Shown one piece after another: positions 49,266 through 63,849 of a stretch of DNA of 64,000 bases; position 1 is the first letter of the stretch; every line of letters starts with the position of its first letter. Origin of the DNA: Lentisphaerae bacterium ADurb.Bin082 (GTDB lineage: Bacteria; Verrucomicrobiota; Lentisphaeria; Oligosphaerales; Oligosphaeraceae); NCBI GenBank assembly GCA_002070945.1, contig MWEG01000023.1, forward strand, positions 124,001 through 188,000, given 5' to 3'. The notes under the pieces were generated by a model that was not told the DNA's origin, did not search any database, and worked only from the letters and a program-made list of their open reading frames with translations. The position numbers and the translations under genes were made by a program.

Positions 49266-50000
49266 TTGAATACCACCCAAAAAACGGCACTTATCATCGG
49301 CGGCAGCCGCGGCATCGGCCGGGCGACGGCCCTGCGATTGGCGCGCGACGGCTATGCCATCATCGCCACTTGCCGACAGGAATCCGCAGCCAGCGCTGAG
49401 CTGGCTGACGGCGTCGCGGCCTGCGGCGTCCCTTTCACCCTGCTCACCTTCGACGTCGGCGACCGCGACGAGGCCCGCCGCCAGCTCGAAGGCGCGTTCG
49501 GCGAAGGCGGAGCACCGGATGTGGCCGTCTTCAACGCTGGCCAGGCTGACGACAACTTATTCGCATTCATGACGCCGGCGCAATGGTCTGACGTCCTGCG
49601 AACCAACTTAGATGGCTTCTACAACACTATCCAGCCCCTTGTCTTCGGCATGCTGGCGCGGAAAAGCGGCCGCATCATCGCGATCAGCTCTGCCTCTGGC
49701 CAGACCGGCCAGGCCGGCCAAGTCAACTATTCCGCTGCCAAGGCCGGCCTGATTGGCGCAGTCAAGGCCCTGGCCCGCGAAGTCGGGCGCAAAGGCGTCT
49801 TAGTCAACGCCATCGCGCCTGGTCTGATTGAAACCGACATGACCAAGGAACTCCCCAAAGAGCGCATCCTGCCACTGATACCGCTGGCGCGGGCTGGAGT
49901 CGCCAATGAAGTCGCCGGCGTAGTCAGCTTCCTCTGCGGTCCGGACAGCACCTATATTCATGGTCAAGTCATCGCAGTCAACGGCGGACTGGTGATGTGA
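49266..50000 (+). CDS. 3-oxoacyl-ACP reductase-like SDR (ApeQ/FabG-like)
   Basis: 244 residues from a TTG start; the first ATG would cut the Rossmann motif. It has NADPH-binding GGSRGIGRA, the NAG motif (FNAGQADD), the catalytic Ser in AISSASG, YSAAK (Tyr and Lys) and the C-terminal VNGGLVM. It should reduce beta-ketoacyl-ACP to the hydroxy form during chain extension. As the first gene of an operon with KS, ACP and dehydratases, it is most like the ketoreductase of aryl polyene clusters, although primary FabG function cannot be excluded. Confidence 0.9.
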   Translation: MNTTQKTALIIGGSRGIGRATALRLARDGYAIIATCRQESAASAELADGVAACGVPFTLLTFDVGDRDEARRQLEGAFGEGGAPDVAVFNAGQADDNLFAFMTPAQWSDVLRTNLDGFYNTIQPLVFGMLARKSGRIIAISSASGQTGQAGQVNYSAAKAGLIGAVKALAREVGRKGVLVNAIAPGLIETDMTKELPKERILPLIPLARAGVANEVAGVVSFLCGPDSTYIHGQVIAVNGGLVM

Positions 50001-50003
50001 CCC

Positions 50004-51482
50004 ATGACAAACAAGGCTTCCAAACCGCATTCCCTGGTTGTCGGCAGCGGCGCCGGCGGCATGACTATGGCCGTGCTGCTGGCCTTGGCTGGCCGCCGGG
50101 TGACGCTGTTGGAGGCGACGCCGCGCGTCGGCGGCCTCCTGCGCCGCTTCCAGCGCCAAGGCGTGCCGTTTGACACGGGCTTCCATTTCACCGGCGGCTT
50201 TGACAATGCCTTCCCCCAAATGCTCGCCATGCTCGGAATCGCCGACCTGGTCCAGGAAGAACCCTTCCAAAGCACGCTGTGCCTGGCGCCCACTGGCAGC
50301 CGCTATGATTGGCCGCGCGGAGTCCGAGCCATCGCCGAATACTTGTCCCAACGCTTCCCAGCTGACCGGGACAAAATCTTCGCCTACTACCAAGCCGAAC
50401 AGGATGCCTTTGCCAACACCCCCATGTTCGACGTGCGCTGCGATGCCGAACAACTCAACAGCAGCCCGTCCGAATACGACTTCCTGACTTTAGACGAATT
50501 CCTGGATCGACTGGGTATCGCTGGCGAACTGCGCACCGCGCTCACCGCCAATGCCACCTGCCATGGCACTCCACCCGGCGAATGCTCGGTCAACCACCAC
50601 TTCCGGATCAGCCATGGCCTGGACAGCCGCATCGCCAGAGTTCGACGCAGCGGCCGCGCCCTCCTCACCGGCTTCCTGCGCGAAGCCAAACGGCACGGCG
50701 TCACCATCCGCACCGGCGTCGTCCCGCGCCGCGGCCTTGACCTGGTCAACCGAAACTGCCACCAAATCGAATGCACTGACGGAAGCACCATCGTTTTCGA
50801 CGATGCCTACTTCGCCATTCACCCCAAGGCCATCCTGAAACTGCTTCCCCCGAAAGCCGTCAAAGCGTATTACCGCGAACAAATCGCCGGGCTGCCGGAA
50901 ACTTGCGGCTTCTTCACCCTGTATGGCGTCCTCGACGCCAGCCTCGACGTGGAACCGCGGCTGACCTCCTGCCTCAATTCGCTTGACTTGAACCGCATCC
51001 TGCGCGGCCAAGAAGAGGCTGCCGCCACCGGCATCGTCACAGCGACCGAACAGACCGCTGCTGGCCGCCGCGTCCAGACCATCACGGCCTTTGCCAGCAC
51101 CGGCCTTGACGCCGCCAAGACCTGGCAGCAAGGACGTGACGCAGCGTACCAGGCTGACAAGGCCGCCGCCGAAAAAAGACTCCTGGCCACCATCTACCAG
51201 GCGCACCCGGAATACGAGGGCAAGCTGACCGTCCTGGCCACGTCCTCACCGCTCACGCATCGCGACTTCATCCCGCCGCTCTCCAGCGCGTATGGCGTGA
51301 GGCAATGCGCGGGCGGGCCGCGCCTGTTTGGACGCCTTCCTGTCCGCAACTGGCACGCCATTGGCCAGAGCGCCTTGGTGCCCGGCGTTTTAGGCGTTAT
51401 GTTAGTCTCTTTTCTACTTTTCCGACAGGTCATTGGCGAGGAAACATATCAACGCCTGCTGTCTTCACGCCTGGGAGCATAG
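50004..51482 (+). CDS. CrtI/retinol-saturase-like FAD-dependent oxidoreductase
   Basis: 492 residues. The FAD-binding VVGSGAGGMTMAVLLALAGRRVTLLEA is followed by GGLLRRF and FDTGFHFTGG. This is the phytoene desaturase/all-trans-retinol saturase pattern. The C-terminal part has QSALVPGVLGVMLVSFLLF, including a membrane-associating helix. Such enzymes desaturate, isomerise or saturate polyenes. It does not belong to the standard aryl polyene set, but CrtI-like proteins recur in candidate ladderane clusters of anammox bacteria. The 3-bp gap after the ketoreductase gene and the ketosynthase start 2 bp after its stop show one operon. Confidence 0.87.
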   Translation: MTNKASKPHSLVVGSGAGGMTMAVLLALAGRRVTLLEATPRVGGLLRRFQRQGVPFDTGFHFTGGFDNAFPQMLAMLGIADLVQEEPFQSTLCLAPTGSRYDWPRGVRAIAEYLSQRFPADRDKIFAYYQAEQDAFANTPMFDVRCDAEQLNSSPSEYDFLTLDEFLDRLGIAGELRTALTANATCHGTPPGECSVNHHFRISHGLDSRIARVRRSGRALLTGFLREAKRHGVTIRTGVVPRRGLDLVNRNCHQIECTDGSTIVFDDAYFAIHPKAILKLLPPKAVKAYYREQIAGLPETCGFFTLYGVLDASLDVEPRLTSCLNSLDLNRILRGQEEAAATGIVTATEQTAAGRRVQTITAFASTGLDAAKTWQQGRDAAYQADKAAAEKRLLATIYQAHPEYEGKLTVLATSSPLTHRDFIPPLSSAYGVRQCAGGPRLFGRLPVRNWHAIGQSALVPGVLGVMLVSFLLFRQVIGEETYQRLLSSRLGA

Positions 51483-51484
51483 TC

Positions 51485-52717
51485 ATGCCAAAAACGCGCG
51501 TCGTCATCACAGGAGCCGGGGTAATCAGCTCGTTGGCCCACAACCGCCAGGATCTCCTGGCCGCCCTGCTGAACCGCGCCTGCGGCGTCCGCGCCATGCC
51601 GGAATGGGCTGACACCCTGCCGCCGGACACTGTCGCCGCCCCGGTCACCCTTGATCAGGACGCGGTCATGAAAATCGACCGACGCTTTCGCCGTTCCATG
51701 GGACCAGCAGCGCTGTTTGCCACCCTGGCGGCTGCCCAGGCGGTGGCAGAAAGCGGTTTGAGCGAAGACATCCTCGGCTCTGGCCGCGCCGGTTGCGCCG
51801 TCAGCTCGACCATGGGCAGCGCATCCAGCATCATGGAATCCTGCTCGCTCCTGCTCCAAGGCCGCCAGGACTACATCTCCGCCCAGCAATTTTTCAAGAG
51901 TGCGGCTCACACCGCCGCCTTCAATGTCGCCAATGCCATGGGCCTGCGCGGCGTCCAGCTTTCGCCGTGTTCGGCCTGCGCCTCGTCGCTGCAAGCCATT
52001 GGCGTCGCCTATGAACAGATTCTGCTCGGCCGCCAGGACGTCATGCTGGCCGGCGGCAGCGACGAGGTGACCCCGTCCGTGACCCTGACCTTCCAACAGC
52101 TGTTCGCCCAGGCCGAAAACAAGGAAAACCGACCGCCTGACCAGATTTCGCGGCCGTTTGACGTCGCCCGCACTGGGCTGGTCTGCGGCGAAGGCGCCGG
52201 CATCGTCGTGCTGGAGTCGCTGGAACACGCCGTCAGCCGCGGCGCCCGCATCCTCGCCGAAGTGACTGGCTACGCCACCATGAGCAGCGGCGAACACATC
52301 AGCCAGTCTGACCAACGCGCCATTGGCCGCTGCATGACCGCCGCCTTGGCCGACGCTGACCTGCGGCCGGAAGACGTCGACCTGGTCAGCGCCCATGCGA
52401 CGGGCACCCGCCAAGGCGACGCCGAAGAAGCAGCGGCGTTGCGAGACTTGTTCGGCGCCAACACGCCCGTGTCCAGCCTGAAGGGCCATCTCGGCCATAC
52501 CCTCGCAGCCTCTGGCGCCATTGAATTAGTGGCCGTCCTCGAAATGCTCGCCCAAAACATCATCGTCGGGACGAAGAATCTGACTGCGGCAGGGCCGGAC
52601 TGCGCTGGCCTCGACCATGTCCAGGCCAACCGACCCGCCAGCATCGGCACCTTTGTCAAGAACAGCTTTGCCTTTGGCGGCGTCAGCGCCGTTCTAGTCG
52701 GGAAAGCCTTCGCCTGA
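51485..52717 (+). CDS. Beta-ketoacyl-ACP synthase (FabF/ApeO-like)
   Basis: 410 residues from ATG 51485; an upstream in-frame start would overlap the FAD enzyme. The catalytic Cys is about residue 165 in SACASS, and the two His are in SAHATGTRQGD and LKGHLGHTLAASG. The C-terminal FGGVSAVLV is typical. It condenses malonyl-ACP with the growing chain. The tail is complete, so this is probably the active elongating KS, with the two later KS-like proteins modifying specificity. Confidence 0.93.
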   Translation: MPKTRVVITGAGVISSLAHNRQDLLAALLNRACGVRAMPEWADTLPPDTVAAPVTLDQDAVMKIDRRFRRSMGPAALFATLAAAQAVAESGLSEDILGSGRAGCAVSSTMGSASSIMESCSLLLQGRQDYISAQQFFKSAAHTAAFNVANAMGLRGVQLSPCSACASSLQAIGVAYEQILLGRQDVMLAGGSDEVTPSVTLTFQQLFAQAENKENRPPDQISRPFDVARTGLVCGEGAGIVVLESLEHAVSRGARILAEVTGYATMSSGEHISQSDQRAIGRCMTAALADADLRPEDVDLVSAHATGTRQGDAEEAAALRDLFGANTPVSSLKGHLGHTLAASGAIELVAVLEMLAQNIIVGTKNLTAAGPDCAGLDHVQANRPASIGTFVKNSFAFGGVSAVLVGKAFA

Positions 52718-52766: not shown

Positions 52767-53048
52767 ATGCAGCCTGAAGACATCATCGCCGCAGTCAACG
52801 CGGTCTTTGTCGAACAATTTGAAATTGATCCGGCCGACTTATTGCCGGAGAAGGAGATTTTCCGCGATCTTGGGTTAGACAGCCTGGACATCGTCGACAT
52901 GATGGTCGGTTTGCAGCGCACCTTTGGCATCTCCTTGCGCCAGAACGAGGAATTGCGCCAGATCGTCACTCTCGGCGACCTCCATGCCTTCTTCCTCAAG
53001 CTGGTTGAGGAAAATCCCGACCTGGCCGCCAAGTTGCAGAAGAAATAA
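52767..53048 (+). CDS. Acyl carrier protein
   Basis: 93 residues with GLDSLDIVDMM; Ser39 is the phosphopantetheine site. The helix pattern and acidity fit ACP. It carries the acyl intermediates between the KS, KR, DH, radical SAM and desaturase proteins encoded around it. TTAAGGAAAA precedes the ATG. This is a cluster-specific ACP, separate from any primary AcpP. Confidence 0.94.
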   Translation: MQPEDIIAAVNAVFVEQFEIDPADLLPEKEIFRDLGLDSLDIVDMMVGLQRTFGISLRQNEELRQIVTLGDLHAFFLKLVEENPDLAAKLQKK

Positions 53049-53069: not shown

Positions 53070-53795
53070 ATGCTGTCGCTTTATCTCTACATGTCCATGA
53101 CGTTCTGGACCTTCGCCTACCTGCTGGTCTGCGCGCTCCCTGCCGCTGTCTGCCTCTTGCTGCCAGTGCGCTGGTCGAGAACTGCGTTCCGGCACCTGAT
53201 CCTCTGGTACGGCAACATCATCGTCAGGATTGCCGTCTGGCCCTGGGTCCGGGTCATCTATGACTCGACGGCGCCGTCTGACGAGGATGACGAGGGCGTC
53301 TACGTATTCAACCACCGTTCCGCTTCCGACCCTTTTCTCATCGCGATGCTCGGTTTGCCCATGCTTCAGCTCGTCAACGGCTGGCCTATGCGCCTTCCCT
53401 TGTTTGGTTTTTTTGCGCGTCGTTGCGGCTATATTGACACCACCAAGAACAACTATGAGGAGTCTCGCGCCAAAATCGCCGCTGCCTTGGGTGCGCATGT
53501 GCCGATCGCGTCATTTCCCGAGGGGACGCGTTCCGGCAGCCGCAACCTCAATCAATTTCGCAGCGGCATCTTCAAGATCGCGATGGAATTGCACGCTCCC
53601 ATCCACCCCTGCTGCATTGTGGGCAATGAATACATCCCGGATCGGCGTTTCCGCTTCCAGGCTGGTCGCATCCATGTGCGCCGGATGCCTGTCATCGCTG
53701 CCGATGAAGCCGCCTCCTTTGGCAATGCCTACCTCCTCAAGCAGCACGTCAAAACGCTGATTCAGGCGGAAATCACCAAATTGGAAGAACCATGA
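53070..53795 (+). CDS. PlsC-type 1-acylglycerol-3-phosphate acyltransferase-like protein
   Basis: 241 residues with two N-terminal hydrophobic segments (about 1-50). The HX4D motif is FNHRSASDPFL, and SFPEGTRSGSRNLNQFRSGIF is motif III of the PlsC family. PHPCCIVG-like sequence (IHPCCIVGNEYIP) follows. It probably transfers the finished acyl chain to a lipid or other acceptor at the membrane, as acyltransferases do in aryl polyene clusters. It overlaps the next gene by 4 nt (ATGA). Confidence 0.9.
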   Translation: MLSLYLYMSMTFWTFAYLLVCALPAAVCLLLPVRWSRTAFRHLILWYGNIIVRIAVWPWVRVIYDSTAPSDEDDEGVYVFNHRSASDPFLIAMLGLPMLQLVNGWPMRLPLFGFFARRCGYIDTTKNNYEESRAKIAAALGAHVPIASFPEGTRSGSRNLNQFRSGIFKIAMELHAPIHPCCIVGNEYIPDRRFRFQAGRIHVRRMPVIAADEAASFGNAYLLKQHVKTLIQAEITKLEEP

Positions 53796-55081
53796 CTACG
53801 GCTGCCTTCTCGCGCCCAACCGACCTTGGCTGGCAAAATCGTGACGCCCTCCGCGCCATGCAGACGCGGCTCCTGAACGAGCATTTGCACCATTGCCGCC
53901 AGCATTCCCCCTTCTACCGGAAGCTCCTAGCTGGGCTGCCGGAGCGTGACCTCACCCTGGAAGACCTGTCCCAGCTGCCCACCACCAGCAAACAGGACTT
54001 GAGCCTCCACAACCAGGATTTCATCGCCCAGGGCCAGCAGGCCGCCGACCTCTGCTTCACCAGCGGAACTACGGGCACGCCCTGTCAGATCGCCTATTCC
54101 CAACGCGATCTTGACCGCCTGGCCTACAACGACGCCGTCGGCTTCCTGGCCGCTGGTTTTTTGCCTGGCCAGCGCATCCTTCTGACCTGCACCATCGACC
54201 GCTGCTTCATCGCTGGCCTGGCCTACTACCGGGGCGTCGTCGCCATGAACGCGGCTGCCATCCGCAACGGCCTCAATACCATCGAAAGCCACGCCCAGAT
54301 CATCAGCGCCCTGCGGCCCGAAGGCATCGTCGGCGTGCCGTCCTTCCTCGCCAAGCTTGGCGCCCATCTGGCGGAACAAGGCGTTGATGCGTCCTCGGTC
54401 AAGAAAATCGTTTGCATCGGCGAACCCATCCGGCGTCAGGACATGTCATTGACGCCGCTGGGCCAGAAGCTGGAAACGTTTTGGCCGGAGGCCGCGCATT
54501 CCACCTACGCCTCCAGCGAAATCGCCACCAGCTTCACCGAATGCCAGGAGCGCCAAGGCGGGCATCCGCCGGCTGACCTGGCCATCGTCGAAATCCTGTC
54601 TCCTGATGGCAAAGTCCTGCCGCCCGGAGAAGTCGGCGAGGTGACCGTCACCCCGCTGCAAGTCGAGGCCATGCCCCTGGTGCGCTTCCGCACCGGCGAC
54701 ATCAGCTTCCTCGTGCCTGGCGACTGCCCGTGCGGTCGCTCCACCCCCAGGATCGGCCCCATCCTCGGACGACAGGCTCAGATGCTCAAAATCCGCGGCA
54801 CCACCATCTTCCCCAACGCCTTCTTCTCTGTCTTGGATAACATCCCCGGCGTTGTCGACTACTACCTGGAAGTCTCGGGAGCATCCCTGTCTGACGAGGT
54901 CGCCATCTTCGTCGTCCTGGCCGAGGGTTCCCAGGTCACCCCAGCGGAAATCACTGAAAAGCTGTATGCCCGCACCCGCATCCACGTCCCCACTTGTCTC
55001 GTCCCGCCGGACGAAGCTCGCCAGCGCATCTATGGCCGTTCGCGAAAACCGGTGCGCTTCTTCGATTTCCGGAAAGGATGA
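53792..55081 (+). CDS. PaaK-like acyl/aryl-CoA (or -ACP) ligase
   Basis: 429 residues of the phenylacetate-CoA ligase type in the ANL superfamily. TSGTTGTPCQIAYS (about 90-103) is the P-loop; STYASSEIA, LVRFRTGDI and the C-terminal KIRGTTIFPNAFFSVL follow. An N-terminal HSPFYRKLL is characteristic of PaaK-like enzymes. It could activate a starter acid and load it on ACP, the role of the AMP-ligase in aryl polyene clusters. The next gene starts within its stop codon (ATGA). The substrate cannot be read from the sequence. Confidence 0.9.
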   Translation: MTTAAFSRPTDLGWQNRDALRAMQTRLLNEHLHHCRQHSPFYRKLLAGLPERDLTLEDLSQLPTTSKQDLSLHNQDFIAQGQQAADLCFTSGTTGTPCQIAYSQRDLDRLAYNDAVGFLAAGFLPGQRILLTCTIDRCFIAGLAYYRGVVAMNAAAIRNGLNTIESHAQIISALRPEGIVGVPSFLAKLGAHLAEQGVDASSVKKIVCIGEPIRRQDMSLTPLGQKLETFWPEAAHSTYASSEIATSFTECQERQGGHPPADLAIVEILSPDGKVLPPGEVGEVTVTPLQVEAMPLVRFRTGDISFLVPGDCPCGRSTPRIGPILGRQAQMLKIRGTTIFPNAFFSVLDNIPGVVDYYLEVSGASLSDEVAIFVVLAEGSQVTPAEITEKLYARTRIHVPTCLVPPDEARQRIYGRSRKPVRFFDFRKG

Positions 55082-56535
55082 CCACCATGTTCACCGACGA
55101 CCATTTCGATTTTTCCGACCAGGACATCCGCCAGGCCGTCGCCGCCAATCGCCTGCTCGCCATTGAAATCGAATTCAACTACCGCTGCAACTACCGCTGC
55201 CCCTACTGCTACGTCGGCGAAACCCCTGCTGCGGAAATCGACTCCAAGCTGGCTGACGATGTGATTGCCGCCGCAGCCGCCCTCGGCGCACGGAAAATCG
55301 TCGTGCTGGGCGGCGAACCCATGCTGTATTCGCGGCTGTGGGAAAAGCTCGAATTGATCAACCGCCTCGGCATGGGCGCGGAAATTTTCACCAACGCCTC
55401 TTTAATCGACGCCGAGGCCGCGCGCCGCCTTGGCCGTCTGAATTGCCGCGTGGTGCTGAAGCTCAACTCGCTTGACCCGACCGTGCAAGAGCGCCTGACC
55501 GGCGTGGCCGACGCCCACGCCAAGACGATGAATGCGATAACTCTGCTGCAAAGCCACGGCTTTGACCAGCCCGGACGCCTCGCGGCCAGCACTGTCATCT
55601 GCGCTGACAACTATGACGGACTGATAGAGCTGTGGGCATGGATCCGCGACCGCGGCATCCTGCCGTACTTTGAAATCATGACTCCCCAGGGCCGCATCTG
55701 CGAACACGCCGAATTGAATGTGGAAGCGCCCCGCTTGCAGAAACTTTTCCTTGAACTCCAGCGCCTGGACGCTGAGCGCTACGGCCGGCATTGGGAAGCG
55801 CAGCCCCCGCTAGTAGGCGGCAAATGCCTCCGCCACCTCTATTCCTGCCTCGTCAACCCGTGCGGCGAGGTGATGCCCTGCGTCGGACTCAATGCCGTCA
55901 TCGGCAATGTCACGACTCAGCCGCTGGCAGAAATCCTGGCTGGCAGCTCTCTCCTCAACGATTTGAAGAACTATCGGAAAAAAATCAAGCCGCCCTGTCG
56001 CGACTGCGACCGGGCGGAATCTTGCTACGGCTGCCGCGGCGCCGCCTATCAGCTCACTGGCGACTACCTGGCGGCTGACCCGATGTGCTGGCGCAACGCC
56101 GACAGGTTGTCCACCATCACTTGCCTGCCCTGCCCAGCCGCGCCGCTGATCCCCCATCAGCCGCCCATAGCCATGATCGACAGCGTCGTCTCCACCGGCG
56201 AAGTCAGCCACATCCGCACGACTATCCGACCAGACAATCGCTTCCTGGACGCCGACGGACGCCTGGACCCGGAAGCGCTGCTGGAAATCACCGCCCAAGC
56301 CTGCGCCGCCTTCAACACCCTGCGCGATAACGGCAGCATTTCGCCAGGCATGCTCGCCGGCGCAACCAACCTACAATTCGAACACGACGTCCACGTCGGA
56401 GACGAACTCGACATCGCTATCCGCGAAACTGCTGTCATCGATAAAATCCACCTTGTTGACTTCACTATCGAGCGCCACCCCGACCGTACGCCAATAGCCA
56501 AGGGAGAAATCAAGCTATGCCTGTGGGATGCATAA
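55078..56535 (+). CDS. Radical SAM-SPASM enzyme fused to an ApeP-like hotdog dehydratase
   Basis: 485 residues. The N-terminal radical SAM domain has CNYRCPYC (Cys37, 41, 44) binding the AdoMet [4Fe-4S] cluster, then VLGGEPMLY. The SPASM region (about 265-345) carries further Cys: GGKCLRHLYSCLVNPCGEVMPCVG, CRDCDRAESCYGCRG and a last Cys in DPMCW, enough for auxiliary clusters. After a linker (LPCPAAP), residues about 368-485 form a hotdog domain beginning LIPHQPPIAMIDSVV, with QACAAF and FEHDVHVGDELDI, like the ApeP/FabZ-type dehydratases. Fusion of an SPASM enzyme with a dehydratase suggests radical chemistry on an ACP-bound acyl chain. The next gene begins 1 nt inside the stop codon. Confidence 0.88.
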   Translation: MTTMFTDDHFDFSDQDIRQAVAANRLLAIEIEFNYRCNYRCPYCYVGETPAAEIDSKLADDVIAAAAALGARKIVVLGGEPMLYSRLWEKLELINRLGMGAEIFTNASLIDAEAARRLGRLNCRVVLKLNSLDPTVQERLTGVADAHAKTMNAITLLQSHGFDQPGRLAASTVICADNYDGLIELWAWIRDRGILPYFEIMTPQGRICEHAELNVEAPRLQKLFLELQRLDAERYGRHWEAQPPLVGGKCLRHLYSCLVNPCGEVMPCVGLNAVIGNVTTQPLAEILAGSSLLNDLKNYRKKIKPPCRDCDRAESCYGCRGAAYQLTGDYLAADPMCWRNADRLSTITCLPCPAAPLIPHQPPIAMIDSVVSTGEVSHIRTTIRPDNRFLDADGRLDPEALLEITAQACAAFNTLRDNGSISPGMLAGATNLQFEHDVHVGDELDIAIRETAVIDKIHLVDFTIERHPDRTPIAKGEIKLCLWDA

Positions 56536-57191
56536 TGCGACGCTGTGCGCCAGTCGCCCTGGCACTCGCCCTGACGCTGCTGGCGCCAATGGCCGCAGCC
56601 GAAAACGCAAAACCGGCCGCCCCGCCTTTTCCAGACCTGGACCGCCTGAAAAAATCTGTGATTCCAGTGCAGACCCTCCAGGCTGACTTCACCCAAACCA
56701 GAACTTTAGCCGAACTGGGCATGGAACTCACCTTCACCGGCCGCATCGTCATGGAGAAACAAGGCCGCCTGGGCTGGTTCGTCCACACCCCGCTTGCCTA
56801 CGCCTGCATCCTGGGCAATGGCCGCCTAGTTCAGTGGGACGGCGAAAGCAACCAGGTGCTGACCCTTTCCGAGCGCCAGGTTCCCTGGCTCAAAGCCCTG
56901 CAAGAATCCCTCGGCAACTGGCTTGGCGCTGATGTGGACGCCATTTTCCAGGACTTCACCCTTATCGGCGGCAGCGAAAAATCCATCAGCCTGGCGCCTA
57001 AGACGCCCTTTCTCCAGGACTTCATCAAAACTCTGGTGCTTTCCTTCACGCCTGACTTCACCCAGGTCGATAATATCCTGCTTTTGGAAGTCAATGGCGA
57101 CAGCATGCTCATTCAATTCAACCATCCCGTCCTCAACCAGCCGATCCCGGAAGACACATGGCAGGTTCCGCCCAAACCAAGGCAACCGTAA
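56535..57191 (+). CDS. LolA-like outer-membrane lipoprotein carrier
   Basis: About 218 residues from ATG 56535; an alternative in-frame ATG lies at 56517. The signal peptide MRRCAPVALALALTLLAPMAAA is clear. The mature part has LQADFTQTRTLAELGMELTFTGRI, the LolA half-barrel start, and MEKQGRLGWFVHTPLAYACI. Aryl polyene clusters carry a LolA-like protein thought to shuttle the lipid product across the periplasm, next to an MMPL exporter, exactly as here. It overlaps the exporter gene by 34 nt. Confidence 0.87.
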   Translation: MRRCAPVALALALTLLAPMAAAENAKPAAPPFPDLDRLKKSVIPVQTLQADFTQTRTLAELGMELTFTGRIVMEKQGRLGWFVHTPLAYACILGNGRLVQWDGESNQVLTLSERQVPWLKALQESLGNWLGADVDAIFQDFTLIGGSEKSISLAPKTPFLQDFIKTLVLSFTPDFTQVDNILLLEVNGDSMLIQFNHPVLNQPIPEDTWQVPPKPRQP

Positions 57192-60178
57192 CCAGACTGC
57201 TGCTCGTGGCCATCCGCCAGCGGCGGTTGCTGTGGACAGTGTTGCTCGTCACCCTGACTCTTGCCGCCATTGCCGCCAGCCGCGCCCGCTACACCAGCAA
57301 CCTGGCCGGACTCTTCCCGACCGGCTCGGAAACCGCCAGAACAGCCCAAGTCCTGGCTGACAGCGGCATGACCCAACGGCTCTGGGTCGACATCAAGGCA
57401 CCTGGCCCAGCCGAACTGGAAGCCGCCATCCCCTGGCTCGACCAAGCTGCCGCTGACCTGGAAGCCGTGCCTGGCATCACCCGGGTCGGCTTCCGCTTCC
57501 GCCGCCAACCGCTCGCCGAAGCCCTGGCCGCATTGACCCCCTGCCTGCCGCAAATCGTCAGCCCAGACCAAATCCAGGCGCACCGCAACCCGGAGCAAAT
57601 CGTCGCCCAAGCCTGGAAAATGCTCGCCCAGCCGACTGTCGGCGCGGTCGCCATGTTCCGCGAAGACCCTTTCGGCGTTCGGGGGCGTCTTCTCCTCAAG
57701 CTCCAGACGCTGCGTCGCCTCTCCGGACTCGGATTCTCGGAAAACCATCCCTTTATGGCCACTGCGGACGGCAGCCGCGCCGTCATGAACCTGGCAACGG
57801 AAATCCCCTATTCTGATGGCGAAGTCGCTCGGCAGCTGCTCGCTGATCTCAATCGCGTCCTGGCCAACGCCCCGGATGGCTTCACCTGCCGCGTCATCGG
57901 GCCGCACAACCACACCATTGGCAACGAAGACGTCCTCCGTCGCGACCTGACCGTGGTGTCTGTCCTCTCCGTCGTTTTCCTGGTCGCGCTGTTCTTCCTT
58001 GTCTACCGCGGTTCGCCCCAGGCTTTGTGGATTCCGCTCTTTCCCCTGGCTGGGTCGCTGATTGCGACTGGCCTGTCCGCGCTTCTCTGGCCAGAGCTGT
58101 ATCTCTTTGTCATCGGCTTGGGCGGCGGTCTTATCGGCCTCGCGGTTGACCAAGGCATTCACGTCTATGCCGCGTTTCGAGGGCGGATGGCGCCGCGCCG
58201 ACTGGCTGGCCTAGCGGCGCCTCTGCTGGCCGCCACCCTGACCTCGGCCGGCAGTTTCGCCCTGGTCATGACCACGGGCAGCCCAGCGCTGCTCCAGCTT
58301 GGCCTCTTTGCCGCGCTCGCCCTCATACTCAGCCTGGACTTGAGCTTTTTCCTGCTGCCGACCGTACTCCGGCCCAGAACCGCCCAAGCCGTTGTCCCAA
58401 CCCAACTGCCATCGTCGCGGCAGGACCGCGCCATTGTCGCTGCCTGGCTAATCATCGTTGTGGCCGCCGTCGCTGCCACGCTTGGCTTTCTCAAAACTTC
58501 CTTCCGCTTTGAAGCCTTTGACGGCGTTCCCGAAACAGTCCGCGCCGAAGAAGCCGATTTCCAGGCCGCCTGGCAAACCAGCGCCCAGCCCGCCATGCTC
58601 ATCGTCAGCAAAAACCCAGCCGTCAAACTGGAAGACTGGCAACAACGGCTGCAAGACTTGGAGACGTTCGCACCGACCGAACTGTGGCCAGCGCCGGCCA
58701 CGCGAGCCGCACATCTCGCACGCTGGCGCGAGCTTGACGTCGACGGCCTGGAGCAGGAACTGGCAGCAGCCGCAGCCAAAAGCGGCCTGCCAGCCGCCTT
58801 CTTCGCCCCGTTCTTCACCGCGCTCCGCGCTGGCCTCGCCGAGCCGCCTGCGCAGCCACCGCCGCTCGTGCAATCGTCCCTCGACATGATGCTTTCCGAG
58901 AAGGCTGGCATTCTGTTTTTCGCAGACAAGCCCGAATTCATCAACCAGGTACGAGCTGCGGCCAAACCTGGGGAGACCGACTTCGCAGTTGTCTCTCCAG
59001 AGGCTTTCAAGCAAATGCTGGCCAGCGATTTCACGGGGCGGCTGCTTCTCGCCTTGGCTGCGGCCAGCATCGCCGTCGTGCTGATCGTCGCCCTCTTTAT
59101 GCGCTCTCTTCGCCTGACTGTTCTCGCCCTGGCGCCAGTCGTCACTACCGCCATTGTCCTGGGCGGCTTTCTCGCTGTGACCGGCATTCCGCTCAACTTG
59201 ATCATCGCCATGGCAGGCATCATCCTGACCGGCCTCAGCATTGACTACGGCATCTACGCTGTGCAGGCGTTCCAGGACGGCCCAAGCTCCTCCATCCCGT
59301 TCGCCATGGGCATGTCAGCGGCGACAACTGTGTTTGCGACTGCTGCCCTGCTCTTTTCCAGGCACCCCATCCTCTTCCACATCGGCCTGACGCTCACCGT
59401 CGGCATCACTGTCGCCTATCTCACCGGATACCTGGTCGTGCCAGCCCTGCTCCGGCTGCGCATACCGAAAAACCGTATCATCCTTTTGACTTTCGGCCTT
59501 TCCGCGACAATAGTACTTTCCGGCTGCCGCAGTTTCCAGGCCGCGGCGACGCCGGAGCTGACCGAGCAACTCCGGCAGGAACTGACACTCTGGCAGCAGC
59601 AGAGTCCCCGGCAAGCCAAATTCCAAGCCAAAGTCACTCTAAGCAATATATTCGCCAGCATACCTATGCTCGTGGTCGGAGAAGTTGACCTGGACAAACA
59701 GACCATCGCCCTCACCGGCCTTTCCCCCACTGGCGCCAAGCTGTTCACCATCACCAGCCAAAACAACGTCATCAACCAACTCAATATCTCAAACTTTTTC
59801 CCTGAAAAACACGCCAAAATCCTCCGTGACCTGCACCAGCATTTCTACCATCTTCTCTTTTTCAACACACCGCAGCTGCCGGATAACTTCCGCCTTTACG
59901 AACAGGAAGTGACCTTTACCAGCCCATGTCCAGAAGCAAAGCCTGTCCAATACCACTTCTCCGGCCGCCCTCTCGTGCTGGCCGCCAAGCGTCAAAAAGG
60001 GTTCTTGACCACCCGCTGGCAATGCCAGTACCACACCATCGAGCGTTTTGGCAGCTATTGGCGACCAGGCGTTGTCACTGCCAAGCTGGCTGGCTCGGCC
60101 TTCCGCTGCGACCTCGACTTCATCCGCTTCACTGTCCTGACCCAGCCGCCCCCCAATTCCAACCCTACCTCCAACTGA
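57158..60178 (+). CDS. MMPL/RND-type exporter fused to a DUF3261-like lipoprotein domain
   Basis: 1,006 residues. Residues 1-770 are an MMPL exporter with an N-terminal helix (about 22-42), a periplasmic domain, a helix cluster (265-420) with GLAVDQGIHVYAAF, a second periplasmic domain, and helices about 625-770 with GIILTGLSIDYGIYAV. The chain then continues through ILLTFGLSATIVLSGC, a sequence that looks like a lipoprotein signal and lipobox (Cys about 790), into a 215-residue beta-rich domain resembling DUF3261. In aryl polyene clusters DUF3261 lipoproteins are separate genes. No ATG or GTG is seen at the junction that would allow independent translation. Confidence 0.85.
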   Translation: MAGSAQTKATVTRLLLVAIRQRRLLWTVLLVTLTLAAIAASRARYTSNLAGLFPTGSETARTAQVLADSGMTQRLWVDIKAPGPAELEAAIPWLDQAAADLEAVPGITRVGFRFRRQPLAEALAALTPCLPQIVSPDQIQAHRNPEQIVAQAWKMLAQPTVGAVAMFREDPFGVRGRLLLKLQTLRRLSGLGFSENHPFMATADGSRAVMNLATEIPYSDGEVARQLLADLNRVLANAPDGFTCRVIGPHNHTIGNEDVLRRDLTVVSVLSVVFLVALFFLVYRGSPQALWIPLFPLAGSLIATGLSALLWPELYLFVIGLGGGLIGLAVDQGIHVYAAFRGRMAPRRLAGLAAPLLAATLTSAGSFALVMTTGSPALLQLGLFAALALILSLDLSFFLLPTVLRPRTAQAVVPTQLPSSRQDRAIVAAWLIIVVAAVAATLGFLKTSFRFEAFDGVPETVRAEEADFQAAWQTSAQPAMLIVSKNPAVKLEDWQQRLQDLETFAPTELWPAPATRAAHLARWRELDVDGLEQELAAAAAKSGLPAAFFAPFFTALRAGLAEPPAQPPPLVQSSLDMMLSEKAGILFFADKPEFINQVRAAAKPGETDFAVVSPEAFKQMLASDFTGRLLLALAAASIAVVLIVALFMRSLRLTVLALAPVVTTAIVLGGFLAVTGIPLNLIIAMAGIILTGLSIDYGIYAVQAFQDGPSSSIPFAMGMSAATTVFATAALLFSRHPILFHIGLTLTVGITVAYLTGYLVVPALLRLRIPKNRIILLTFGLSATIVLSGCRSFQAAATPELTEQLRQELTLWQQQSPRQAKFQAKVTLSNIFASIPMLVVGEVDLDKQTIALTGLSPTGAKLFTITSQNNVINQLNISNFFPEKHAKILRDLHQHFYHLLFFNTPQLPDNFRLYEQEVTFTSPCPEAKPVQYHFSGRPLVLAAKRQKGFLTTRWQCQYHTIERFGSYWRPGVVTAKLAGSAFRCDLDFIRFTVLTQPPPNSNPTSN

Positions 60179-60180
60179 CC

Positions 60181-60552
60181 ATGTCGGATTCCTTCTTGCG
60201 CAACGCCCTGCGGCAACGCCTGCGCTCCGTCGCCATTGCCGACGACAGACGCAGCGGCAGCCTGTCCATCACCTTTGACCGCGCTTTCCCCGGGTTTGAC
60301 GGCCACTTCGCCGAACAAAGCATTGTCCCTGGGCTGTGCTTTATCCAACTGGCCGTCATCCTCGCCGAGGAAATCCGCGGCCAGCCGACTCGCCTGGCCG
60401 AAATCGTCCGCCTGAAATCGCTCAAGCCGATCCAGCCGGAGGAGTCCGTCAACCTTGCCCTCACCCGCCGCAACGGCCGTTGGCAGGCCGTGACCACAAC
60501 CCCGGCCGGCGAAACCGTCTGCCAGCTGCTCTTCACCGTGAAAGACGCATGA
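60181..60552 (+). CDS. FabA/FabZ-like (ApeI-type) hotdog dehydratase
   Basis: 123 residues from ATG 60181, 2 nt after the exporter stop. The motif FDGHFAEQSIVPGLCFIQLAV corresponds to FxGHFPxxPIxPGV of FabZ/FabA with the catalytic His, and LKPIQPEESVNL follows. A second dehydratase besides the ApeP-like domain is usual in aryl polyene clusters and would give iterative double-bond formation. The stop overlaps the next ATG (ATGA). Confidence 0.88.
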   Translation: MSDSFLRNALRQRLRSVAIADDRRSGSLSITFDRAFPGFDGHFAEQSIVPGLCFIQLAVILAEEIRGQPTRLAEIVRLKSLKPIQPEESVNLALTRRNGRWQAVTTTPAGETVCQLLFTVKDA

Positions 60553-61022
60553 GAAGACAACAACACTATTTTCAGCAATATCCCGGCGACCCGGCGCCGA
60601 TCACCGTCACCATTCAGCGGCGACTGCGCTTCAGCGAGGTCGACGCCCTCGGCATCGCCTGGCATGGCCGCTATTTGCAGTTCTTTGAAGACGCCCACAC
60701 CGAACTGATGCACAAAACCGGCCTGACCTACGACCACTATTTCAAACATGACGTCGCCGCCCCTATCGTCCAGGCTCATGTCGACTACTTCGCTCCGCTG
60801 CTGCTTGACGAGCAATTCGCGGTCAAGGCGACCTTCTTCTGGTGCGAAGGTGCGCGGCTGAACGTCGAATACAGCGTCACCAAACCCAATGGCGAACTCG
60901 CCGCGACCGGCTTCACCGTGCAGATGTTCTACGACATCAAAACGCGAAAGCCCTGCCTGCTCATACCAGACATCTTCCAAGAATGCCTGGAACAATGGAA
61001 AAAAGGCGCCTTTTATGACTGA
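60549..61022 (+). CDS. Acyl-thioesterase of the 4HBT hotdog family
   Basis: 157 residues. VTIQRRLRFSEVDALGIAWHGRYLQFFEDAHTELM is the 4-hydroxybenzoyl-CoA thioesterase signature: an Asp followed by G-(I/V)-x-(Y/W)-x-x-Y-xx-(F/W)FE. VDYFAPLLLDE and VQMFYDI follow. It could release or proofread acyl-ACP, like the thioesterase of aryl polyene clusters. It overlaps the next KS gene by 8 nt. Confidence 0.9.
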   Translation: MRRQQHYFQQYPGDPAPITVTIQRRLRFSEVDALGIAWHGRYLQFFEDAHTELMHKTGLTYDHYFKHDVAAPIVQAHVDYFAPLLLDEQFAVKATFFWCEGARLNVEYSVTKPNGELAATGFTVQMFYDIKTRKPCLLIPDIFQECLEQWKKGAFYD

Positions 61023-62079
61023 CGTCTGGATTGAACATACTGCCCTCAAGACGGCTCTCGGCGAAGGCGTGGAAACGACTTTCGCAGCCTTGCTGGCCAG
61101 GCAGACGTCCTTCACGGCGCCGCTGCATTTTGACGGCAAAGGCCGCACCCTGGCTCTATGCCATGACCTCGACAGCCACACCGTACCCGGCCAGTCGCGC
61201 GCTGAAGCGCTGCTGGTCAGCCTGCGCCAGCAGCTGCCGGAACGCCTGCCGGAACGCCTTTACCTGGCCACCACCGTCGGCGCCATCGACCTGCTGGAAA
61301 AAGACGGCAGCCCCATCGAAACCAGCCGCGCCCTGCTCGACAGCGCCAAGCGCCTCTTCGGCGCTCGGCAGGCCTGGCTGGTGGCAGCGGCCTGCGCCTC
61401 TGGACAGGCCGCCATCACCACAGCAACGGCGGCCATCCGCGCTGGCCAATGCTTAGACGCGCTCGTAGTCGGCTGCGACATCACCAGCGAATTCGTGACC
61501 GCTGGCTTTGCCTCGCTCGGCGCACTCGCGACGACCTCTCCACGGCCATACAGCCAAGACCGCGACGGCATGGCTCTCGGCGAAGCTGCGGCCGCCGTCG
61601 TCCTGACCGCTCGGCCAAAGCAGCCCTGCGGCCGCATCGCCGCCTGGGGCGAAACCTGCGACGCAGCCCATATCACCGCCCCAGACCGAGCCGGAACTTG
61701 GCTTGGCCTGGCCTGCCAGGCCGCCTTGGCCGGCCGCACCCCAGCGGCCATCATCGGTCACGGCACCGGCACCATCTACAACGACGACGCCGAGCTGGCC
61801 GCCCTGACCAGCCTGATGCCTACCCTGCCGCCGCTGTTCTCGCTGAAAGCGAACCTCGGACACACCCTGGGAGCAACCGGCGTTATCCAGGCCATCATCG
61901 CCACCGCCACTCTGCAACGCCGTCAACTGCCGCCCCAGGCCGGGCTGACAGTTCCCGACCCCAGAGCCGCCCAGGCGGTCTCCGCCCTCCCCGCCGCCAT
62001 CCGCGACGGCGGCATACTTTCCATCAACGCCGGCTTTGGCGGCATCAACCACGCCCTGCTGGTCGAGGAGGCATCATGA
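61015..62079 (+). CDS. Second beta-ketoacyl synthase, shortened
   Basis: 354 residues from ATG 61015. It is shorter than the KS encoded at 51485, mainly in the N-terminal half. The active-site Cys (about 127) is in AAACASGQA, and the His residues in IGHGTGTIYNDD and KANLGHTLGATG, so the triad is complete. The C-terminal NAGFGGINHALLVEE is present. In aryl polyene clusters a second KS partners a smaller KS-like subunit for chain initiation or length control, and the next gene here encodes such a small protein. The stop overlaps the next ATG. Confidence 0.9.
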   Translation: MTDVWIEHTALKTALGEGVETTFAALLARQTSFTAPLHFDGKGRTLALCHDLDSHTVPGQSRAEALLVSLRQQLPERLPERLYLATTVGAIDLLEKDGSPIETSRALLDSAKRLFGARQAWLVAAACASGQAAITTATAAIRAGQCLDALVVGCDITSEFVTAGFASLGALATTSPRPYSQDRDGMALGEAAAAVVLTARPKQPCGRIAAWGETCDAAHITAPDRAGTWLGLACQAALAGRTPAAIIGHGTGTIYNDDAELAALTSLMPTLPPLFSLKANLGHTLGATGVIQAIIATATLQRRQLPPQAGLTVPDPRAAQAVSALPAAIRDGGILSINAGFGGINHALLVEEAS

Positions 62080-62606
62080 GCATCATCGGCCAAGCCACCA
62101 TCACTGCCACAACGGCCAGCGCCCTCCAGAGCGGCCTGGCCTTCGCTTTCACAGACCTGTCCGATCTGCGCGACCAGATCACCAGCCGGCCAGAATGTCC
62201 GTCCTGCGACCTAAGCGACTTCCGGCGAGCTGGCCCCAACGTCAAGCGCGCCATCCTCGTCGCTATCCTCGCTGCCATCGACTGCGGCCCCCAGTGGAGG
62301 CCAGACGCCACCGCGCTCCTCGGCTGGAACGGCGAAGGCTGCGCCGCTGAAAACGCCCTTTTCTGGCAGGACTATGTCGCCAACGGCCGCACCCAGGGCC
62401 GCGGCGCACTGTTCGTGCCAACGCTCTGCTCCATCCCGCTATGCGAAGCGGCCATTACCCTGGGCATTCATGGCCCAGCCGCCTATCTCCACGGCCCCGA
62501 CCTGGCTGACGCCATCGCCGCCCGCCACGCGCCCTTCATTATGACCATCACCATCGCAGACTCGCAGACCACTGCCACGGTTCTGGAAACTTCCCATGAA
62601 GCTTAA
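62076..62606 (+). CDS. Small KS-like protein (Ketoacyl-synt_2-type, ApeC-like)
   Basis: 176 residues. Weakly similar to the stand-alone beta-ketoacyl synthase N-terminal domain (PF13723 type): RAGPNVKRAILVAILAAID, then VPTLCSIPLCEAAITLGIHGPAAYL, which corresponds to the (L/P)xNAxAGxLAIxLGxxGPSxT segment. The KS catalytic Cys and His pattern is not recognisable. It probably acts as the inactive partner of the preceding KS, like a chain length factor. It overlaps the next gene by 11 nt. Confidence 0.7.
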   Translation: MSIIGQATITATTASALQSGLAFAFTDLSDLRDQITSRPECPSCDLSDFRRAGPNVKRAILVAILAAIDCGPQWRPDATALLGWNGEGCAAENALFWQDYVANGRTQGRGALFVPTLCSIPLCEAAITLGIHGPAAYLHGPDLADAIAARHAPFIMTITIADSQTTATVLETSHEA

Positions 62607-63849
62607 ACTCATCTACCCGCGCTGGCCAAAATTGCCGAACCAGCCTGAATTCAATCTCCCGCCCGTAGGCCCGACTGTGTTCGCCGCCGCCTTGCCGCCG
62701 GATGTCGACGTCGACTTCTACGACGAAAACGTCGAGGACATCGACTTTGACGCCTCCTGCGACCTAGTCGCCATCTCCTGCATGCTGACCTGCCAGGCGC
62801 CGCGAGCCTTTGAACTGGCCGACCGCTTCCGCGAAGAAGGCAAAACCGTGTTCATGGGCGGCATCGCCATCATGCTCCATGCCGAAGAAGCCGCCCGCCA
62901 TGCGTCATCCATTTTCCTCGGCGAAGTCGAAGGCCGCCTGCAAGCCGTTTTCCAAGACTTCCAACAAGGCAAACTGCAAAAATGCTATGACTTCCTGCAC
63001 GACTATCCTGACACCAGCCTGATCGGCCCGGCCCGGCGCGACATCCTCAAGCATCACCTCTATAACTACCGCGGCGTGCAGATGGTCGACCTGGTACACG
63101 CCTCGCGAGGCTGCCGCTTCAACTGCTTCCCCTGCTGCACGCCTTACCTCGGCGGCCGCAAATTCCGCCCCCGCCCCATCGATCAAGTCGTCGAGGAAAT
63201 CGCAGGCATTGACAACAATCGCCTCTTCATCGTTGACAACTCCCTTGCCCAGGATGACGAATGGGAAAAAGACTTGTTCCGCGCCCTGGCTCCGCTCCGG
63301 AAAAAGTGGATTTCCCACCCCATCAAGGACACGCCGGAAATCCTGCGCCTCGCAGCCGAGGCTGGCGCCTGGTACGTTTACCAAGCTATATTCGACACCT
63401 CGGACTACATCCGCGACCGCATCCAACGCTACCGGGACCACGGCATTGGCGTCGAAGGAACCATCATCCTCGGCACGGACGACCAGTCCCTTGACGACAT
63501 CAAGCGTCTCGTCGACTTCCTCCTCGAAATCGACCTTGACCTGGCTGAATTCACTGTCCTAACCCCGTTTCCGCATTCGTCCATCGCAGCCAAGCTGGAA
63601 GCCGAAGGCCGCGTTCTCCACCACGACTGGATTCGCTACACAGCCGGCGAAGTGGTCTTCAAGCCAGCCAAAATGACGGTTGACGAACTGCAATGGGCCT
63701 ACCAATACGCCTGGGATACCTTCTATCACGACGCCAGCAAGGAATTCAAAATGGCTAAACTCTACCTGGATGTGATGAAAAAAGAACGCGCCGACGGCCA
63801 AAACCCAGATATCCGGCTGACCAGAAGCAAATGGGGACGCAACGAGTGA
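62596..63849 (+). CDS. Cobalamin-binding radical SAM enzyme (class B type)
   Basis: 417 residues. The N-terminal 120 residues fit a B12-binding Rossmann-like domain, with VGPTVFAAALP, YDENVEDIDF, LVAISCMLT and MGGIAIMLH; as in many such proteins, the strict DxHxxG is absent. CRFNCFPCC (Cys173, 177, 180) is the AdoMet cluster motif. TIILGTDDQ, the family's 'GxxD'-like strand, and LDLAEFTVLTPFPHS follow. Class B enzymes methylate or rearrange unactivated carbons; B12 radical SAM proteins are typical of candidate ladderane loci. The substrate is inferred to be the acyl chain made by this operon. Confidence 0.88.
   Translation: MKLKLIYPRWPKLPNQPEFNLPPVGPTVFAAALPPDVDVDFYDENVEDIDFDASCDLVAISCMLTCQAPRAFELADRFREEGKTVFMGGIAIMLHAEEAARHASSIFLGEVEGRLQAVFQDFQQGKLQKCYDFLHDYPDTSLIGPARRDILKHHLYNYRGVQMVDLVHASRGCRFNCFPCCTPYLGGRKFRPRPIDQVVEEIAGIDNNRLFIVDNSLAQDDEWEKDLFRALAPLRKKWISHPIKDTPEILRLAAEAGAWYVYQAIFDTSDYIRDRIQRYRDHGIGVEGTIILGTDDQSLDDIKRLVDFLLEIDLDLAEFTVLTPFPHSSIAAKLEAEGRVLHHDWIRYTAGEVVFKPAKMTVDELQWAYQYAWDTFYHDASKEFKMAKLYLDVMKKERADGQNPDIRLTRSKWGRNE

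Follow-up and report, generated by a model that had tools for sequence, protein, structure and literature searches.

A conserved fusion of a radical SAM-SPASM enzyme with an ApeP-like hotdog domain in predicted aryl-polyene-like gene clusters

The SPASM enzymes PqqE, AhbD, NirJ, SkfB, SuiB and anSME share a TIM-barrel core and a Cys-bearing SPASM region, and the characterised members are best known for acting on peptides, sulfatases and tetrapyrroles. The dehydratases FabA and FabZ carry the catalytic His on a His-Phe loop and have Glu or Asp as the second residue, and each FabA active site draws its two residues from different subunits (PMC2698920); no paper naming both His49 and Glu63 of FabZ was found in the open-access literature. 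In the ApeI:ApeP heterocomplex of Xenorhabdus doucetiae (PDB 6QSR) the Glu is in one chain and the GHF motif in the other. The same arrangement is found in the system described here, which has a hotdog nearest to chain B (ApeP) and a second protein, encoded at 60181, that matches chain A (ApeI); the ApeP of 6QSR is a stand-alone protein, whereas the ApeP-like hotdog is here the C-terminus of a radical SAM-SPASM enzyme.

Aryl polyene (APE) systems and the present system also have similar gene sets. The gene lists of the E. coli APE system (PMC8253772) and of flexirubin (PMC3992019) both match the operon around the fusion, in which radical SAM enzymes and a flavoprotein are additional. The flexirubin cluster (flx) of Chitinophaga pinensis has in common with it a FlxY-like ligase, a LolA2-like carrier, several ketosynthases (KS), dehydratases, a GT and an acyltransferase, whereas as many as three radical SAM enzymes, together with a CrtI-like flavoprotein, are found here and the NCBIfam scores are under the cut-offs. 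The ammonia-lyase (PF00221) of the flexirubin coumarate route is absent from 24 genomes bearing fusion-type clusters; with the family scores under cut-off, this led us to reject a flexirubin system in the strict sense.

A further comparison is offered by the 'ladderane-like' FASII clusters of Kuenenia and Desulfotalea, which, according to Rattray 2009 (PMC2649909), encode radical SAM proteins, a PaaK-like ligase and proteins of phytoene-dehydrogenase-like and MMPL-like type. These and the fusion clusters share several radical SAM proteins, a PaaK-type ligase, a flavoprotein, an MMPL-like protein and many KS; the passages of that article on these clusters mention no hotdog fusion. 'Ladderane' clusters without known products are reported from many non-anammox phyla, among them Verrucomicrobiota, Omnitrophota and Desulfobacterota (PMC9902471), and no paper linking ladderanes with Lentisphaerae was found in the open-access literature. 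The B12-binding radical SAM protein encoded at 62596 scores 40 bits against the ladderane family TIGR04072, whose cut-off is 360, and is not a member; no ladderane product is implied for the fusion cluster. What is new here is an apparently undescribed fusion within known aryl-polyene-type clusters: as the initial annotation had supposed, no description of a radical SAM-hotdog fusion was found in the accessible portions of the open-access literature.

The fusion gene lies in a stretch of 64,000 nucleotides, the whole of which is called the window, and its features are the following.

55078..56535, + strand: radical SAM-SPASM::ApeP-like hotdog fusion protein, 485 aa (open frame, Pfam, homologues, AlphaFold2 model with Foldseek)
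55171..55593, + strand: radical SAM core, residues 32-172 (PF04055, E 2.5e-18)
55186-55209, + strand: CX3CX2C motif (C37, C41, C44), its three Cys invariant in 43/43 fusions
55825..56091, + strand: SPASM domain, residues 250-338 (PF13186, E 3.4e-9)
56137..56532, + strand: ApeP-like hotdog, residues 354-485 (profile match to 6qsr_B, Foldseek, FabZ alignment)
56284-56286, + strand: Glu403 of the hotdog, catalytic-type, invariant in 43/43 fusions

Positions 55078-56535 form a single open frame of 485 codons followed by TAA, in which CNYRCPYC occupies residues 37-44 and LIPHQPPIAMIDSVV runs from residue 357, within a hotdog part of about 130 C-terminal residues. An ATG at 55078 lies across the stop codon of the ligase gene upstream, four bases being common to both genes. 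Start 55087 is more likely than 55078 because the homologues start with the residue that corresponds to Met4 (MF...), and 55087 is also preceded by AAAGGA at a better spacing; the true start is thus probably 55087, as judged from these sequences. Curated Pfam cut-offs are exceeded by both the Radical_SAM match (residues 32-172; 67.2 bits, cut-off 29.5) and the SPASM match PF13186 (residues 250-311; 37.3 bits, cut-off 21.5), and the SPASM region holds seven Cys (250, 268, 307, 310, 316, 319 and 337). The AlphaFold2 model of the whole protein, built on an alignment of 31 sequences, has a pLDDT of 92.8 and a pTM of 0.90; in Foldseek its N-terminal part matches SkfB, SuiB and PqqE and its C-terminal part the ApeP chain 6qsr_B (TM 0.76, E 1.7e-10), the first hotdog listed. 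The frame proposed in the initial annotation, with CNYRCPYC, a Cys-rich SPASM region and a hotdog, is open; Pfam bears out its radical SAM and SPASM domains, and the model both of its folds. The protein is distant from described enzymes: identity to SPASM enzymes of solved structure is 14-20%, and its NCBIfam matches, all to SPASM families, score far under the equivalog cut-offs.

Intact full-length fusions number 43, from independent assemblies of at least four bacterial phyla: 23 from 289 sampled genomes of the window's phylum, 9 from a contig search, 8 from Omnitrophota (the phylum of L043) and 3 from the small phylum of L045. L044, labelled Deltaproteobacteria, is of the same phylum as the Desulfobacterota sample and returned the same genomes. 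All 43 retain ten Cys (those of CX3CX2C and seven in SPASM), Glu403 and Gln407. Between the window and L035, which are 89% identical, dN/dS is 0.13 in the radical SAM part and 0.15 in the hotdog; both halves are under purifying selection. The source genomes are mostly metagenome assemblies, which could favour an assembly or frameshift artefact, but the 43 fused frames come from separate assemblies and selection acts on both halves, so that an artefact is extremely improbable, the assembly version being refuted by the 43 conserved fusions. The fusion is genuine and conserved. In one genome (G246, L065 1471-3744) a single 758-codon frame reads as radical SAM-SPASM, hotdog and LolA, either a triple fusion or a frameshift.

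The hotdog was assigned mainly through its relatives. On its own it has no Pfam match, the ApeP-like PF22817 included, and a single-sequence search of the PDB returned ApeP 6qsr_B alone (E 0.057). With a profile of 21 relatives, 6qsr_B was the top match (E 1.3e-15); many FabZ also matched, all of them scoring lower, and PF22817 matches 12 of these 21 relatives (best E 1.7e-5). Profile and Foldseek, which tested the suggested hotdog fold of the C-terminal part, thus both arrive at 6qsr_B. When aligned with true FabZ, Glu403 is kept at the position of the FabZ Glu, and the GHF segment with the His is deleted, as in ApeP; the FabZ-type dyad of His (GHF) and Glu is not found within this one chain, and a self-sufficient FabZ-like dehydratase was rejected on the absence of the GHF segment. 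The proposal of an ApeP-like dehydratase holds as regards the ApeP-like hotdog, supported by profile and fold; this hotdog is probably not a dehydratase by itself. A Pro-His motif quoted earlier has His in 28 of the 43 fusions and Gln in 15, which makes a catalytic role for it unlikely.

A GHF His is found in a second hotdog protein, a predicted partner subunit.

60181..60552, + strand: ApeI-like hotdog, predicted partner subunit (profile matches to 3esi_A and 6qsr_A; homologue alignment)
60304-60306, + strand: GHF His42 of the ApeI-like protein, invariant among about 30 relatives

The best profile matches of this protein are 3esi_A (E 1.2e-13) and ApeI 6qsr_A (E 9.7e-13); 6qsr_A is also among the fold-search matches of its alignment-free model, which is of moderate quality (pLDDT 76) and carries little weight. 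The ApeI-like gene is present in about 30 of the fusion-type clusters, and GHF is invariant across about 30 of these proteins, most of which have no Glu at the FabZ position; the four that carry it (L057, L062, L068 and L069) mean that the split dyad is not universal. The fusion hotdog is thus predicted to be the ApeP half of an ApeI:ApeP-type heterodimer. Since it has no segment with the catalytic His, it probably depends on the ApeI-like protein for its function, and the active site is probably split, with Glu403 in the fusion and the GHF His in its partner; one composite dehydratase site per heterodimer would be the simplest reading.

The other genes of the operon are these.

49266..50000, + strand: FabG-like ketoreductase (PF13561, E 2.2e-48)
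50004..51482, + strand: CrtI/phytoene-desaturase-like flavoprotein (PF01593, E 9.8e-15; CrtD/CrtI families under cut-off)
51485..52717, + strand: beta-ketoacyl-ACP synthase, KS1 (NF006587, 357 bits)
52767..53048, + strand: acyl carrier protein (PF00550, E 1.6e-8)
53070..53795, + strand: PlsC-type acyltransferase (PF01553, E 2.8e-18)
53792..55081, + strand: FlxY-like (PaaK-type) aryl acid ligase, directly upstream of the fusion (NF053551 FlxY, 378 bits, cut-off 520)
56517..57191, + strand: LolA2-like carrier of ApeL type (PF03548; NF053544 flexirubin LolA2, 61.5 bits, cut-off 125)
57158..60178, + strand: MMPL/RND exporter of ApeM+ApeN type whose C-terminus is DUF3261-like (PF03176 and PF11659 matches weak and under cut-off; position conserved)
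60549..61022, + strand: 4HBT thioesterase of ApeK type (PF13279, E 1.4e-16)
61015..62079, + strand: second ketosynthase-like protein, KS2 (PF02801/PF00109)
62076..62606, + strand: conserved 176-aa protein, syntenic in relatives
62596..63849, + strand: B12-binding radical SAM protein (PF04055 above, PF02310 below cut-off)

The PF00550 match bears out the carrier protein that the initial annotation had placed beside the fusion gene. The order ketoreductase, CrtI, KS, ACP, acyltransferase, ligase, fusion, LolA, MMPL, ApeI, thioesterase and KS, then the 176-aa protein and the B12 radical SAM gene, is common to these phyla. Past the window lie, on the same contig, a second B12 radical SAM gene, a GT whose tail is DUF2062-like, an acyltransferase resembling LpxL and more KS, all named by sequence reading rather than by family search. 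This set corresponds to the APE/flexirubin list (ligase, ACP, KS, ketoreductase, two dehydratases, thioesterase, LolA, MMPL exporter, GT and acyltransferase), and the operon can be classed, by gene content, as a putative aryl-polyene/flexirubin-like type II PKS.

Some of these proteins have features of their own. The DUF3261-like stretch of the exporter (residues 843-894) is weak, and the protein reads as if ApeM and ApeN were fused. Among NCBIfam models, KS2 scores best against cispentacin AmcF (156 bits, cut-off 325). The 176-aa protein, which has no Pfam or NCBIfam match, keeps its place in most fusion-type clusters. The B12 radical SAM protein is 63-81% identical across distant relatives and more conserved than the fusion; this type was not found in 12 of the 30 genomes searched, some of those 12 being incomplete, and a strict dependence of the fusion on it was rejected on this count. 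In G014 and G094 the fusion is kept and both B12 enzymes are missing at the locus, the G014 contig ending nearby.

The radical core has been lost in three relatives. In G079 (L075) the hotdog stands alone, the radical SAM core and SPASM being gone and both B12 enzymes also missing; G016 (L074) and G526 (L132) keep the SPASM Cys and the hotdog and have lost CX3CX2C, as dead or truncated cores fused to SPASM and hotdog (L074 8796-10088, L132 9384-10514). The G016 locus is without both B12 enzymes, and that of G526 keeps both and lacks the ligase. The KS tree places each of these three within groups of fused relatives. The radical core is dispensable, having been lost three times independently. 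The dependence within the fusion is one-sided, as the hotdog persists without a radical core in these three relatives; it is the hotdog that is retained, and the radical enzymes resemble detachable tailoring modules.

An unfused form also exists. Desulfobacterota encode the radical SAM-SPASM protein without a hotdog; the clusters concerned also contain KS and B12 radical SAM genes, often with a ligase gene, and, compared by description, resemble the 'ladderane-like' ones of the 2009 article (PMC2649909). From this form and the three core losses it follows that the tether is not essential to the radical chemistry. In the radical SAM tree one unfused group falls outside the fusions and another within them; most simply, a single fusion event was followed by one later hotdog loss, a reading that depends on a root which is not secure. 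In two unfused loci (L126 10241-10939, L124 8836-9804) the radical SAM gene and the gene for the B12 enzyme are separated by a gene whose product reads like a PagL-type lipid A deacylase of the outer membrane; LolA and MMPL occupy this position in fused clusters.

We propose, with a probability of roughly 0.55, that a radical SAM-SPASM enzyme with a tailoring role is here joined covalently to the ApeP subunit of a two-part dehydratase, in a polyene-type operon with ACP-bound substrates. The hotdog would dimerise with the ApeI-like protein, and the pair would, by analogy with its families, dehydrate 3-hydroxyacyl-ACP in every elongation round. The tether would keep the radical SAM site beside this complex, where it may alter the polyene, or the aryl end of the polyene, while this is still ACP-bound, either in the course of assembly or immediately afterwards; dehydrogenation, C-C bond formation and decarboxylation are candidate reactions. 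The radical C-C bond or epimerisation put forward in the initial annotation is speculative. That both halves act on the same carrier-bound chain, as first suggested, fits the fusion and the operon, and the tether suggests that the radical SAM half acts on an ACP-bound chain or starter.

An alternative, possible but on the whole improbable, is that the radical SAM half produces or alters the aryl starter acid that the FlxY-like ligase activates, the fusion serving only to hold it close to the synthase. In nearly all fused loci, and in L124-L130, the ligase gene immediately precedes the radical SAM gene, the dead core of L132 goes together with the lack of a ligase gene at that locus, and PF00221 is absent from the 24 genomes, so that the flexirubin route to coumarate is missing. 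APE systems, however, use 4-hydroxybenzoate without ammonia-lyase (PMC8253772), the ligase is retained where the radical core is gone (L075) or dead (L074), and the fused partner is ApeP and not the ligase, which points to later chain chemistry.

The same losses bear on the role of SPASM. That L074 and L132 keep the SPASM Cys and the hotdog without CX3CX2C, and that the model is one confident two-domain body, would agree with a mainly structural or redox-sensing SPASM part that docks the dehydratase, radical chemistry being secondary; this is unlikely given that CX3CX2C is kept in 43/43 full-length fusions and that L075 has the hotdog without SPASM. Very unlikely is a function in peptide or protein maturation, as in the majority of characterised SPASM enzymes, with the hotdog as only a carrier: the closest solved folds are indeed RiPP maturases and PqqE and the NCBIfam matches are SPASM families, all far under cut-off, but fused and unfused neighbourhoods alike are of lipid/polyketide type and no precursor peptide gene was noticed, short ORFs being covered unsystematically.

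The covalent link between a SPASM enzyme and a fatty-acyl/polyene dehydratase, which at least four phyla conserve, argues strongly on genetic grounds for a role in lipid or polyketide assembly, and it ties the radical SAM enzymes of unexplained 'ladderane-like' clusters to a definite partner protein. Close relatives in which the radical core has been lost naturally provide ready comparisons for tracing the product. A bolder and doubtful extension is that the radical SAM-SPASM enzyme on its polyene dehydratase makes new C-C bonds in the polyene, or desaturates it, while it is bound to the ACP, leading to a lipid class not yet known. The radical step of ladderane-type lipids has long been proposed and, to our knowledge, never shown; if a radical enzyme held on the dehydratase does act on the polyene in this way, the fusion would offer a tractable model for it.
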